A DNA stretch of 64,000 bases, from assembly GCA_037481875.1 (NCBI GenBank), contig JBBFKY010000008.1, positions 90,691 through 154,690 of the forward strand, written 5' to 3'. The position numbers and the translations under genes were made by a program. The notes below the pieces were generated by a model, which did no database searches, was not told the DNA's origin, and worked only from the letters and a program-made list of their open reading frames with translations. This DNA comes from Desulfosoma sp. GTDB taxonomy: Bacteria > Desulfobacterota > Syntrophobacteria > Syntrophobacterales > DSM-9756. This document shows positions 5,723 to 10,660 of the stretch, piece by piece; position 1 is the stretch's first letter, and every line of letters begins with the position of its first letter.

Positions 5723-5965
5723 AGATTCTTGCCTGTGCTGGTCAACACATGAGACAGACCATCCAAAAACTTCGGCATGCCGCAAGGACACATCGGTTCG
5801 ACCCTACAGTTCCTAGAAGTGCTGGTGGAAACATGCGTCCGTCCCAACGAGGGGTTGTCCGAGGAAAGGTTATTTGCTCTTTGGCACGGCCCAACACCTG
5901 TGATAAGAAAACGACTTCCAAGCTTAAAAACCATCAAGCCAATGGGAAAGGACGAGGAGCACGTC

Positions 5966-6865
5966 ATGCAGAGGGTGGCCTTGTTTGAAACGCATTTTCC
6001 ATCTCTCAAACTCAAATCTCGAGGTAAAGTGCGCGACATCTACGACCTTGGAGATTCTCTGGTCATCGTCGCCACGGATCGTATTTCGGCCTTTGATGTA
6101 GTGATGCGCACAGCCGTTCCGGACAAGGGGAGGATCCTCACGGCGCTCTCTCTCTTTTGGTTCGATTTTTTAAAGGACACAGTCGACAATCACCTCTTGC
6201 ACACAGATGTCCACGCTTTTCCCGAATCGTGCGCACCCTATGCCGATACCCTTCGGGATCGCTCCATGTGGGTCAAAAAAGCCGAACCTCTTCCCGTAGA
6301 ATGCATCGTTCGAGGGTACCTGGTAGGATCGGGTTGGAAAGATTACCAAAAAACAGGATCCGTGTGCGGCATTCCATTACCAAAAGGTCTTCGACTGGCC
6401 GAAAAATTGCCCGAACCCATTTTCACGCCGTCCACCAAGGCGGAGCAGGGTGCCCACGACGAAAATATTTCTTTTGATCAAATGACGGATCGCATCGGTA
6501 GGGATCTGGCCGCGCGTGTGCGTGACTTAAGCCTGAGTATCTACGACAAAGCCGCCGCATACGCTTTGAGCAAAGGCATCATTTTGGCCGATACCAAGTT
6601 GGAATTCGGTCTCGCCGACGGTCATCTGATCCTTATCGATGAAGTTCTGACGCCCGACTCCAGCCGGTTCTGGCCTGCGGATCGATACCGCATAGGCTCA
6701 AACCCTGAAAGTTTCGACAAGCAATATCTTCGGGATTACTTGGTGGACATTGGATGGACACCGGAACAGCCGGCGCCGGAACTGCCTGAAACGGTGGTGC
6801 AAAACACCCGAAGCCGTTACCTGGAAGCCTTGGAGCGACTGACAGGCCACGGCCTTAGCCTGTAA
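5966..6865 (+). CDS. purC: phosphoribosylaminoimidazole-succinocarboxamide synthase (SAICAR synthetase)
   Basis: PurC joins CAIR and aspartate with ATP in purine biosynthesis. The conserved blocks are present: GKVRDIYD near the N-terminus, [26 protein letters not shown], and the EVLTPDSSR block near the C-terminus. The length of 299 residues fits the longer PurC subtype. A frame open 189 bases upstream to 5777 has no homology; the ATG at 5966 is preceded at six bases by GAGGAG. The ParB-like gene follows after only six bases, so purC probably shares its message with the next three genes, though no metabolic link is obvious. Confidence 0.95.
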
Positions 6866-6871
6866 AAACTC

Positions 6872-7894
6872 ATGGAATCCAAGCGTCTCGTTTCCGCTCC
6901 CTTGTCTCAGATAGACTGGGAAGACCACACCTTTGCCGTTCCATCTTATGTGCCGGACGAAAGGCTGGAGCAATCGCTCGAAACGTGTGGAGTCCTCACA
7001 CCTCCGACTCTATGGGAAAAGACGCCACATCGTTTCGTTATCCTTGATGGGTTCAAAAGGCTTTTCTGGTTGCGGTGCCGGTGCGATCATGTGCAGGCTT
7101 TGGTCCATCCAACAGATGCCGAACACAGAAAGCTTCTGGCTTTTCGGCTTGAAACCAAGATGTTTTCCAGGCCTTTGAATCTGGCGGAAAAAGTTCATAT
7201 TGTCGCCAAGTACGCCACACTGACCACACAAGAGGACCTGCAGCGAAGGATTTGCCCGACCTTGGGAATATCCGGTGCTGCCGATACCCTACCTCGATGG
7301 TGCTCCATCGCCACATGGCCTTCAAACCACCTTGCCGCTTTGGCTCAAGAGCTTATCGCCGACAAAACGGCTCTTCTGTTGACTTCCGTCTCTCATACGG
7401 ATCGAGAGGCTTTTCTGGACCTCATACAAACTCTACGCTGCAGTGCCAGTCTTCAGGTGGAAATTCTTGAGCGGTGCAAGGATATTGCCCAACGAGACGG
7501 AGTGACATGGCAGACACTCCTTTCGGCTTCGGAAATCCAAAACATTGTGAAAGATCCTGAACGGAATCGCCGCGAAAAAACAGCCGCTGTCCGTGAACTC
7601 CTGAAGCAATGGCGTTTTCCACGGTTATGGAAAAAAATGACCGCCATCCAAAATGCCATTGCCCAGATGAGCTTGCCTTCCAACATGTCCCTTGCGCCTC
7701 CTGCGTATCTGGAAGGCGAGGTATGGGAACTGAAGGTACACTTTCGTCACCCTGAGGCCCTGGCCGCCTCTGTTCAGAAAGCGGCGTCTCTTGCCCAATC
7801 CCAGGAATTCCAAAATCTTTTTCATCTTGTGGATCATCCCGTCGCCTTCCATGAAGACGAACCTACACCCTTTCTTTTCACCCGTCATCCATGA
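6872..7894 (+). CDS. ParB/Srx-like domain protein
   Basis: A 340-residue protein. The N-terminal 100 residues match the ParB/sulfiredoxin-like fold: a QIDWEDHTFAVP opening strand, LEQSLETCGVLTPP, and VILDGFKRL, which corresponds to the ligand-binding G-x-x-R turn of ParB N-terminal domains. The middle contains helices around KVHIVAKYATL, comparable to the helical part after a ParB domain. The C-terminal 150 residues are helical and unassigned. It is not a chromosome-partition ParB by context: no parA is nearby. It sits immediately before a radical-SAM spore-photoproduct-lyase-like gene, with a four-base gap, and may act with it. The nucleotide or DNA substrate is unknown. Confidence 0.75.
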   Translation: MESKRLVSAPLSQIDWEDHTFAVPSYVPDERLEQSLETCGVLTPPTLWEKTPHRFVILDGFKRLFWLRCRCDHVQALVHPTDAEHRKLLAFRLETKMFSRPLNLAEKVHIVAKYATLTTQEDLQRRICPTLGISGAADTLPRWCSIATWPSNHLAALAQELIADKTALLLTSVSHTDREAFLDLIQTLRCSASLQVEILERCKDIAQRDGVTWQTLLSASEIQNIVKDPERNRREKTAAVRELLKQWRFPRLWKKMTAIQNAIAQMSLPSNMSLAPPAYLEGEVWELKVHFRHPEALAASVQKAASLAQSQEFQNLFHLVDHPVAFHEDEPTPFLFTRHP

Positions 7895-7898
7895 AGGC

Positions 7899-9023
7899 AT
7901 GAAACCGACCGTTCGAAATCCCATCACCTCCCTTGTTGTGGAAAAGGCCGTCGCCTCCAGCCCCATCGTTCGTACCCTGCTGGAAAGATTGCCATCCATT
8001 CCTGTGGTCTATGTGGACAAGGTGGCGGAGACCCAAGAAAAAATTCCGGGTCTTTTGGAGGTCGTTCATTACAAGGGACGATTTTGGCGAAACTGTCCGG
8101 GAACCAAAATCTATGAATGTTGTGGATACCAGATCGTCCATATTGGCACGCAATGCAGCCTGGATTGCACCTATTGCATCTTGCAAGCCTACTTTGAAAG
8201 TCCCAATTTGAGGATCTTTGGAAACCTAGACGACCTGCTGGCAGAAGTGCAGGCAGTTACGGCGTCCTCACCCCAACGCTTGCTTCGAGCCGGCACCGGA
8301 GAATTCACAGACTCCTTGCTCCTGGACCCTTGGACGGGTTTGTCCCAGCACTTGGTCCCCCTGTTTGGGCAAATCCCCAACGCCGTTCTAGAATTGAAAA
8401 CGAAAACCGATCATGTGTCACAACTCAAGGGCTTAGACCATCGAGGTCACACCCTGGTCTCGTGGTCCCTTAATGCCGAGGAGATCATCCGCACGCAAGA
8501 ACCCCGCGCCGCTCCATTAAAGGCTCGGCTGCACGCCGCGCAACAATGCGCTCAATGGGGATACTTTTTAGGGTTTCACTTTGATCCCATGATTGATTAT
8601 CCAGGATGGCGCGAAGGGTACCGACGCACTTTGCAGGCGCTTTTTGAAGCTGTTGACCCTGCCAAAGTGGTGTGGATCAGCTTAGGGGCTTTTCGGTTCA
8701 TGCCCGATTTGAAAGCCATCATTGAACGGCATCATCCCAAAAGCCGCATAGTCACCGGAGAATTCATTCGCGGACTGGACGGTAAGATGCGCTATTTTCG
8801 AGACATCCGCCTAGAGCTTTACCAATGGATGGTTGAACAACTTCTGGGCTGGGATTCAAACCTGTGCGTCTACCTGTGCATGGAAGGACCTTGGATCTGG
8901 AAGCATGTCTTCGGACAAGAGCCTGCATGCAAAGGGGGACTTCCTGCCCTTTTGGACAAAGCCGTTAAGGAACGCATGGGGATCGAGCCAATGACGCACG
9001 GAGGAGACAATGCCCTTGAATGA
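7899..9023 (+). CDS. spore photoproduct lyase-like radical SAM protein
   Basis: A 374-residue radical SAM protein with the C-x3-C-x2-C cluster motif CSLDCTYC at C86/C90/C93, the pattern of spore photoproduct lyase. Later blocks also fit that family: LELKTKTDHV, VSWSLNAEEI and LGFHFDPMI. However, where B. subtilis SplB has EASCTSD with the hydrogen-donor Cys141, this protein reads RAGTGEFTDS, and the tyrosine after the cluster motif (CHYCY) is isoleucine here (CTYCI). It is therefore probably not a standard thymine-dimer repair lyase. Starts at 7851 or earlier would overlap the ParB-like gene; 7899 matches the family N-terminus best. The next gene overlaps its end by 14 bases. Confidence 0.82.
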   Translation: MKPTVRNPITSLVVEKAVASSPIVRTLLERLPSIPVVYVDKVAETQEKIPGLLEVVHYKGRFWRNCPGTKIYECCGYQIVHIGTQCSLDCTYCILQAYFESPNLRIFGNLDDLLAEVQAVTASSPQRLLRAGTGEFTDSLLLDPWTGLSQHLVPLFGQIPNAVLELKTKTDHVSQLKGLDHRGHTLVSWSLNAEEIIRTQEPRAAPLKARLHAAQQCAQWGYFLGFHFDPMIDYPGWREGYRRTLQALFEAVDPAKVVWISLGAFRFMPDLKAIIERHHPKSRIVTGEFIRGLDGKMRYFRDIRLELYQWMVEQLLGWDSNLCVYLCMEGPWIWKHVFGQEPACKGGLPALLDKAVKERMGIEPMTHGGDNALE

Positions 9024-10041
9024 AAACGATAAACGGGCGGTTCTTTCCTGGAATACCCATGTGTCCGGCAAGGTGCCCTTGGGGCTGCAGAAGACACGGG
9101 ACACACGGAGTGCAGTGCTTCAAGCCTTTGGAGATGAACTTGTCGGGCTCACGCCGCACATCAGCCTCGAGACGACCTTTAGGGACACAAATGATTTACC
9201 GGCCTTTTTTGTTGGAAACGGCTGGATATGGCACGCCGCCCCGTCAGGAGCTGAATTCAGGCCGTTTCTTGAAACTCTGGCCCTTTTTCACGAGAGGTCG
9301 GCAGAGTCGTTTCCTTCATCGGAAAAGGAACAAAAGGGATCGTTTCAGCAAAGGAAACCCGATCTGTGGGATAGGCTTCAAGGACTGCAAAAGCCTACGG
9401 AGCTTTTGGTGTTTACGGCCTCTCAGTGCCCCCATTGCGCTCATATGCTTTTCGAACTAGGCCCTCTACCTTTCCTCTCCTCGTATCTGGTTATCCGTGT
9501 CCTGGACGCCTTGCTTTTCGCCGAAAAAGCTCAAGAGGCCGGCATTCGATCCGTTCCCACGATCCTTTACGGCGATCATTTTCGCTGGACGGGCCGTGTC
9601 GATCTGGCTCATGTCCTGGAAGTGGTCTGCCGTGATGAACACACAGAACTCTCGGCTGCTGCCGCCGTTCGTCTGCTTAAAGAAGGCAAAGCCAAAGAGT
9701 TGAGCCGACTCATGTTGACTTCTTCAAAAATTTGGAAAGATTTCGCTTCTGTGCTCACCCATGCCGAATGGTCGGTACGCCTGGGCGCTCTGGTAGTCCT
9801 CGAAGAATTGGCCGAGAAGAACGTTACCAGGGCTCGAGCCTATCTTCCGCTTCTGTGGGAAAACATGGACACCTTTTCAGCGGCGGTTCAAGGCGACGTG
9901 ATTTATGCCACTGGAATGGTCGGGGACTCGACCTGGGCTGAGACAGTCCTTCAATGGGCCCAAAAACATGCCCAGGACGCAGAGCTTCAAGAAGTGGCCG
10001 AAGAAACAATCAATATACTGAGAACAAAGCGCAGTCCGTGA
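9010..10041 (+). CDS. thioredoxin-fold protein with HEAT-like repeats
   Basis: A 343-residue protein, probably cytosolic because no signal peptide is seen. Residues about 120-210 form a thioredoxin or glutaredoxin-like domain with the redox motif CPHC (ASQCPHCAHML) and the cis-proline region IRSVPTILYG. The C-terminal 120 residues look like two or three HEAT-type helical repeats (WSVRLGALVVLEELAEK). The first 100 residues are a poorly conserved domain, perhaps a second, inactive thioredoxin fold. It overlaps the SPL-like gene by 14 bases and closes the purC-led operon. It may keep the radical SAM enzyme or its substrate reduced; this is inference from position only. Confidence 0.78.
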   Translation: MPLNENDKRAVLSWNTHVSGKVPLGLQKTRDTRSAVLQAFGDELVGLTPHISLETTFRDTNDLPAFFVGNGWIWHAAPSGAEFRPFLETLALFHERSAESFPSSEKEQKGSFQQRKPDLWDRLQGLQKPTELLVFTASQCPHCAHMLFELGPLPFLSSYLVIRVLDALLFAEKAQEAGIRSVPTILYGDHFRWTGRVDLAHVLEVVCRDEHTELSAAAAVRLLKEGKAKELSRLMLTSSKIWKDFASVLTHAEWSVRLGALVVLEELAEKNVTRARAYLPLLWENMDTFSAAVQGDVIYATGMVGDSTWAETVLQWAQKHAQDAELQEVAEETINILRTKRSP

Positions 10042-10459: not shown

Positions 10460-10660
10460 TTAAGCGGCTTTGCCCAGGAGCATATTTTCCAGGATTTCCC
10501 TCTTGGCCGCAAATTCCCCCGTAAACATGGGCGGGCAGGCTTTCAGCTCCACTTCCTTTTTGGCCAGCTTGGCGGCAAACGCCATGCACGTGGCCTCTCC
10601 ACATTCCTTGCAATTGGTCTTTGGTAAATGCTTGAGAATTTCCACGACGTTGAGCTTCAT
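10460..10660 (-). CDS. small (Fe-S)-binding domain protein
   Basis: A 66-residue protein that is essentially one 4Fe-4S domain of the type found at the N-terminus of the acetyl-CoA synthase/CO dehydrogenase corrinoid protein large subunit and in RnfB (PF04060 type). Cysteines are C17, C20, C25 and C42 in NCKECGEATC ... KACPP. A strong GGAAGGAGGTGG ribosome binding site lies before the ATG. It stands alone between a plus-strand operon and the sigma-54 activator gene. Single-domain versions are common in anaerobes; the partner is unknown. Confidence 0.85.
   Translation of the reverse strand: MKLNVVEILKHLPKTNCKECGEATCMAFAAKLAKKEVELKACPPMFTGEFAAKREILENMLLGKAA

Follow-up and report, generated by a model that had tools for sequence, protein, structure and literature searches.

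Spore photoproduct lyases (SPLs), such as SplB (PF20903, TIGR04070), are radical S-adenosylmethionine (SAM) enzymes with a TIM-barrel fold, a CX3CX2C cluster motif, and a tyrosine and a lysine at the SAM site (Y96 and K174 in Geobacillus SPL, whose numbering is marked Gt below; Gt C140 corresponds to Bs C141). The hydrogen donor can differ among SPLs: the Clostridium acetobutylicum enzyme, which repairs spore photoproduct, is reported (PMC5368176) to rely not on C141 but on C74, which lies across the pocket, and in the Geobacillus enzyme a C140A/S76C double mutant has been made, for which a structure exists. SPL-family proteins of the TIGR03886 type occur in non-sporulating bacteria. Radical SAM enzymes are also found together with family 2 glycosyltransferases (GT2s), as in the mycofactocin (MftC/MftF) and arsenosugar (TIGR04283) systems. 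Glycosylated DNA bases such as base J arise when thymine or cytosine is oxidised and then glycosylated, via oxygen-dependent or hydroxymethylation steps. Here, we describe a locus in a 64,000-nucleotide stretch of Desulfosoma sp. DNA (contig JBBFKY010000008.1, positions 90,691 to 154,690; hereafter the window), in which a gene for a ParB-like protein (340 aa; 6872..7894, plus strand) directly precedes a gene for an SPL-like radical SAM protein (374 aa; 7899..9023, plus strand). This pair recurs across phyla, its third component is a GT2 that lies elsewhere in this genome, and we tentatively suggest that the three proteins could modify a nucleobase or nucleotide-linked substrate.

The assignment of the radical SAM protein to the SPL fold is secure. 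It matches PF20903 (E=3.5e-31), its family profile matches Geobacillus SPL (E=7.5e-40), and its AlphaFold2 model (predicted local distance difference test, pLDDT, 83.6) superposes on Geobacillus SPL (4rh0) with Z=27.0 in the VIA comparison (root-mean-square deviation 2.9 Å over 289 residues, 22% identity), the second-best fold reaching Z 12.8. The likeness to SPL, noticed earlier in a reading of the sequence alone (the sequence-only reading), is thereby borne out. On TIGR04070 the protein scores 109.7 bits, below the cut-off of 400. It belongs to a subfamily marked by a GTGE motif, all 94 members of which form one group in a tree (support 0.86), on a branch separate from the TIGR03886 references, which were plasmid-borne members of the same superfamily.

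Within this fold, the active site differs from that of SplB (residue counts here and below cover the 94 aligned GTGE family members, or the 93 besides the window's). The cluster motif, CSLDCTYC (8154..8177), has its three cysteines in 94/94 members. The second SAM-site tyrosine, Gt Y96, is retained as Y92, Gt K174 is retained too, and Y92 and K169 are invariant, so that the catalytic site is intact. The Gt Y98 (Bs Y99) column holds Ile94, as the sequence-only reading had stated for the tyrosine after the cluster motif, and in the 93 other members it holds I69 V12 F7 A2 T2 S1, with tyrosine in none, unlike the Clostridium acetobutylicum SPL, which keeps the conserved tyrosine; a tyrosine relay cannot match that of SplB. 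The hydrogen-donor cysteine position had been read as G or T (in RAGTGEFTDS), but in both profile and MAFFT alignments the Gt C140 column is occupied by Glu135, the E of GTGE (8292..8303), which is conserved as E in 85 of the 93 others (Q in six, H and D in one each). The SAM-binding GGE motif of radical SAM enzymes usually lies at the end of the strand that is predicted at residues 129-132 in the AlphaFold2 model. Because GTGE lies at the end of this strand, and because TIGR03886-type SPL-family proteins from Deinococcus and Streptomyces likewise have Glu at the C140 position (in a GEN motif), Glu135 is probably the ordinary GGE glutamate rather than a replacement for a lost cysteine. The two plasmid-encoded proteins in question (L201 and L202) read LGENSD and IGENGD, so their annotation as photoproduct lyases is also doubtful.

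Several other residues are peculiar to the family when compared with SplB. Extra cysteines are found at Cys66 (8094..8096; 90/94), at Cys74-Cys75 (8118..8123; C74 in 88/94, C75 in 94/94) and at Cys327 (91/94) in the family-specific YLCME motif (Cys327-Met328-Glu329, 8877..8885), of which M and E are invariant. Where SPL has FVVAP, the family has FHFDP (8574..8588), with His227 in 93/93 and Asp229 in 90/93; the polar invariants of the family are H227, D229, E329, K296 and R298. In Omnitrophota, C66 and C74 have been lost jointly, and C327 is gone too in 3/4. Cys75 falls in the segment that holds the C74 donor of the Clostridium acetobutylicum SPL, an equivalence drawn from alignment; the profile alignment pairs it with Gt Ser76, whereas MAFFT places the two out of register, the segment as a whole aligning poorly. 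Cys75 may thus be a candidate alternative hydrogen donor. Since it is invariant and the clostridial enzyme provides a precedent, the claim that the family has no hydrogen-donor cysteine is untenable as worded, and we rejected it. The absence of Cys at C140 and of Tyr98, together with a shortened C-terminal hairpin and a TIGR04070 score of 110/400 bits, supports the view that the enzyme departs from canonical SPLs.

The protein encoded upstream gave no Pfam match in a single-sequence search. The profile of its family matches the structures of Spo0J, ParB and Noc (2.5e-16 to 5e-12), ParB_N is matched by 14/28 family members individually, and its model (pLDDT 93) superposes in the VIA comparison on pNOB8 ParB-N (Z 11.7), PadC (11.3), CDP-bound ParB (~9.5) and the Noc DNA-binding domain (6.7), in agreement with its earlier identification as ParB-like. 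By profile and structure comparison, this fold is also common to SerK/SbnI and sulfiredoxin. With PadC and the CTPase clamps ParB, Spo0J and Noc, the protein shares an N domain and a ParB-type helix-turn-helix region, and Gly60 and Arg63 of the GxRR motif are retained in the window's protein. Unlike these clamps, it has a C-terminal domain of its own, and its partner is a radical SAM enzyme rather than parA, which was absent from the window neighbours read. This C-terminal domain is the conserved feature of the partner. Some short ParB-like proteins begin at profile positions 140-161 and still adjoin the SPL-like gene, their N domain having been lost or never been there.

The pairing is widespread. 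Homologues of the SPL-like protein (counts vary with score thresholds) were found in 52/59 relatives, in 180/297 Desulfobacterota, in 68/82 genomes of a Calditrichota/KSB1-type phylum (the phylum holding L057, L060 and G345) and in 57/145 Omnitrophota. The ParB-like gene lies directly upstream of the SPL-like gene at 19/19 loci in Syntrophobacteria, 24/39 in other Desulfobacterota and 16/20 in the Calditrichota/KSB1-type phylum; an Omnitrophota ParB-like protein encoded apart from the SPL-like gene (L157) was left out of the counts. Its recurrence in unrelated families and phyla confirms that this adjacency exceeds chance. In three KSB1-type loci (L050, L052, L156), the pair is divergent to a row of ssb, cytidine deaminase and uridine kinase genes, joined by thymidine kinase in L050 and L052. 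The SPL-like gene has no ParB or GT2 neighbours at L054, L055 and L061, which come from SAR324 and an uncultured proteobacterium, and there it adjoins a gene for a LON-type substrate-binding protein; in the genome of L054 (G343), the sole ParB found is of canonical length.

The true third component of the module, missed by the sequence-only reading, is a GT2. It lies directly upstream of ParB in 11/39 loci of other Desulfobacterota (order GT2-ParB-SPL) and directly upstream of the SPL-like gene in 6/6 Omnitrophota loci, while G074 and G111 have GT2-ParB pairs distant from SPL. These cassette GT2s are all orthologous to one another, with about 50% identity between phyla, and orthologues score 366-425 bits vs approximately 200 or less for paralogues. 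The window's own genome (G000, 3.4 Mb) encodes its GT2 on another contig (G000:C12:86214-87017, 388 bits), single-copy and unlinked to ParB-SPL, and the same holds for 54/59 genomes of the window's class. This gene (L216 7905-8816) comes after a tRNA-dihydrouridine synthase gene and a long-form ispH, both as judged by reading the sequence; the dus-ispH-GT2 order repeats in several Syntrophobacteria, in some of which futalosine-pathway-like genes are divergent to it.

Co-occurrence of the three components is strong in Desulfobacterota. Among the 297 genomes, 180 encode the SPL-like protein, 170 the GT2 and 160 the ParB-like protein; 148 have all three and 110 none, while the SPL-like protein alone is found in nine, the GT2 alone in three and the ParB-like protein alone in zero (pairwise Fisher p ~1e-52 each, a test that ignores phylogeny). 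Several genomes with SPL and GT2 were scored as lacking ParB (among them G109, G172, G199, G309 and G328), yet a short or divergent ParB adjoins SPL in these. Within the genus g39, the complete single-contig genome G068 is without all three genes and G105, G168, G220 and G325 have all of them, and in G082 all three are present though unlinked. In Omnitrophota, GT2 and SPL-like genes are likewise associated (both 40, SPL only 17, GT2 only 5, neither 83; p=8e-17).

A mobile or viral origin of the module was considered and rejected. Viral contigs gave 59 pattern hits to the SPL-like protein, none of which was confirmed, and their GT2 matches were generic (<=41% identity over parts). Plasmids and phages carried only distant SPLs (~25% identity). 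The PADLOC protein models for anti-phage defence gave no match for the ParB-like, SPL-like and thioredoxin-like proteins or the L060 GT2, although a missing match does not in itself speak against a defence role. We conclude that the module is chromosomal, conserved, located among housekeeping genes and widespread in anaerobic bacteria.

What the module does can be approached from its parts. The reading that we place first, while regarding it as tentative and short of probable, is a pathway in which the SPL-like, ParB-like and GT2 proteins modify a nucleobase or a nucleotide-linked substrate, the identity of which is conjectural. It is favoured because it best accommodates the fold, the pairing with ParB, the presence of a glycosyltransferase and the neighbouring genes; the context leans towards nucleic acids, with the SPL fold, the ParB-type helix-turn-helix region, and purC, dus and ssb/cdd/udk/tdk as neighbours. 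The three proteins would form a single chromosomal pathway. As its motif and modelled fold suggest, the SPL-like protein would use a [4Fe-4S] cluster and SAM to generate a 5'-deoxyadenosyl radical, which would activate a C-H bond of the substrate. The ParB-like protein may bind the nucleic acid or nucleotide and present it via its conserved C-terminal domain, after which the GT2 would attach a sugar, resulting in a glycosylated modified nucleoside. In the window's family (f1) only, a neighbouring thioredoxin-like protein might maintain Cys75 and other thiols in the reduced state. Gene anatomy, folds, motif conservation, adjacency in several phyla and the joint occurrence of the three genes in Desulfobacterota are established here, while it is conjecture what the substrate is, in which order the steps run and whether the proteins touch one another. 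A narrower form of this proposal, which we consider unlikely, is that a glycosylated hypermodified nucleobase is made without oxygen in the chromosomal DNA or the tRNA/rRNA of anaerobes, with the ParB-derived protein as recruiter. The sequence-only reading had already suggested a modification system other than dimer repair: the non-canonical SPL, the conserved ParB-SPL pair and the GT2 speak for this, whereas the missing cysteine no longer serves as proof of a different chemistry.

Several findings weigh against this proposal. The tip of the C-terminal hairpin (WGRYG in SPL), which we take to be the DNA wedge of SPL with its DNA-contact residues, is six residues shorter in all members compared, which means that the substrate may be something other than DNA. 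In the window's ParB-like protein, the catalytic Glu-Asn of the third CTPase motif is replaced by Thr95-Lys96, the E/D-N being retained in approximately half of the family, and seven loci (L093, L100, L116, L123, L125, L127, L128) encode the C-terminal part only, which makes the nucleotide-binding domain dispensable there. The SPL-like gene is locally alone at about 14/39 loci of other Desulfobacterota and in SAR324. The Calditrichota/KSB1-type phylum shows no GT2-SPL association (both 38, SPL only 30, GT2 only 8, neither 6; p=1.0); the GT2 therefore seems to be tightly coupled to the module in certain phyla, whereas in another it can be dispensed with or has a substitute. Finally, the GT2 also resembles polysaccharide enzymes (TuaG, 1e-31).

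An alternative is a sugar or glycoconjugate pathway, in which the radical SAM enzyme would act on a small molecule or a nucleotide-linked sugar for transfer by the GT2, and the ParB-like protein would serve as a nucleotide-binding adaptor or kinase-like helper, with SbnI/SerK, DesII and mycofactocin as models for comparison. We judge this explanation possible but rather unlikely. The presence of a GT2 in most SPL-bearing Desulfobacterota, its TuaG- and EpsD-like profile, the ParB fold in common with SerK/SbnI and sulfiredoxin, the shortened wedge and the polar invariants (H227, D229, E329, K296, R298) all agree with it. Conversely, SPL is by far the nearest fold (Z 27, next 12.8), the neighbourhoods read show no further sugar genes that repeatedly accompany the module, and the GT2 scores fall far under every curated cut-off: the L060 cassette GT2 reaches 71 bits against 182 for TIGR04283 and 67.6 against 280 for TIGR03965 (MftF). 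The mycofactocin and arsenosugar systems also differ in having no ParB and a radical SAM enzyme of another family.

Repair of DNA lesions, with a vegetative SPL acting on spore-photoproduct-like or other thymine lesions, Cys75 standing in for Cys141 and the ParB-like protein scanning DNA, is in our view a distinctly unlikely function. The SPL fold, the retained K174 equivalent and the helix-turn-helix region of ParB would suit it, as would the invariant Cys75 in the segment of the clostridial donor (PMC5368176), with the structure of the C140A/S76C mutant beside it. However, Tyr98 is absent in all members, GTGE stands in place of the C141 region, the DNA wedge is shortened, and anaerobic, non-sporulating hosts are unlikely to meet much UV; repair also has no need of a glycosyltransferase, yet the GT2 co-occurs, and its presence favours a modification pathway over the repair of dimers. 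That there is no joint pathway, and that three vertically inherited housekeeping genes merely share ancestry and became adjacent by operon rearrangement, would agree with the phylogeny-blind Fisher tests, the phylum without association and the many solitary SPL loci, but is quite improbable given that GT2-ParB, ParB-SPL and GT2-SPL are each adjacent in different phyla and that the genes are lost together within the single genus g39. Modification of a nucleobase or nucleotide-linked substrate thus ranks ahead of the sugar or small-molecule pathway, lesion repair and the absence of a joint pathway, in that order.

In the window, the ParB-SPL pair belongs to a tightly packed plus-strand row of purC, ParB-like, SPL-like and thioredoxin-like genes (neighbour names throughout are read from sequence). 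The purC gene (SAICAR synthetase, 5777..6865, plus strand; NF010568 430.7 bits vs a cut-off of 251) is context outside the module; it precedes ParB-SPL in the Syntrophobacteria loci and in L107, L108 and L130. Six bases separate purC from the ParB-like gene, four bases separate the latter from the SPL-like gene, and the SPL-like and thioredoxin-like genes overlap by 14 bases, a packing that the sequence-only reading had described correctly. The SPL-like start at ATG 7899 agrees with relatives, the listed open reading frame start at 7791 being a mechanical upstream TTG. A scan for promoters and terminators gave a signal no better than chance. The fourth gene (9010..10041, plus strand) encodes a thioredoxin-like protein with C-terminal helical repeats (TIGR02187, 5.2e-9) and, as claimed earlier, a CPHC motif, which is retained in 7/8 orthologues and reads CLHC in one. 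Its orthologues adjoin the SPL-like gene only in f1, the family of the organism itself. We therefore rejected this thioredoxin-HEAT gene as a module member and regard it as a lineage-specific add-on; of the three-gene cassette proposed before, the ParB-SPL pair is what recurs elsewhere. Further along the window, the minus strand at ~10470-10660 holds a small reading frame rich in cysteine (...NCKECGEATCMAF...), which looks like a CODH/ACS-type Fe-S domain standing on its own.

Other arrangements were seen among SPL-family genes. In Fusobacterium vincentii (L203 849-2717), a 623-aa protein has an N-terminal MTA/SAH nucleosidase-like part, which perhaps removes 5'-deoxyadenosine, and, at its C terminus, an SPL whose cysteine segment is of the clostridial type. 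A Roseomonas plasmid carries tandem SPL-family genes (L199 1-375 and 365-1441) with an 11-base overlap.

Each component belongs to a known family, whereas their combination appears to be new; the radical SAM part on its own represents a diverged lineage within an established family. A search for papers that link ParB to radical SAM enzymes in the context of SPL, CTPase or glycosyltransferase, which covered few subscription papers, found none. Where COG1533/PF20903 proteins occur in non-sporulating bacteria, their annotation reads spore photoproduct lyase or DNA photolyase. Such assignments have consequences: a 2024 study of the last universal common ancestor interpreted COG1533 (PP 0.88) as possibly pointing to habitats exposed to UV, and also noted its presence in non-spore-forming lineages with little UV exposure (PMC11383801). 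The GTGE family is a large, coherent SPL branch that lacks the canonical cysteine and tyrosine and is accompanied by a ParB-like protein and a glycosyltransferase. With a parts list and strong co-occurrence, the module is directly testable. A glycosylated-base module, if true, would mean that base J and phage base glucosylation have an anaerobic equivalent in cells. More generally, if the three proteins do form a modification pathway, many 'SPL' calls would be wrong, and a pathway common among anaerobes would so far have gone unrecognised.

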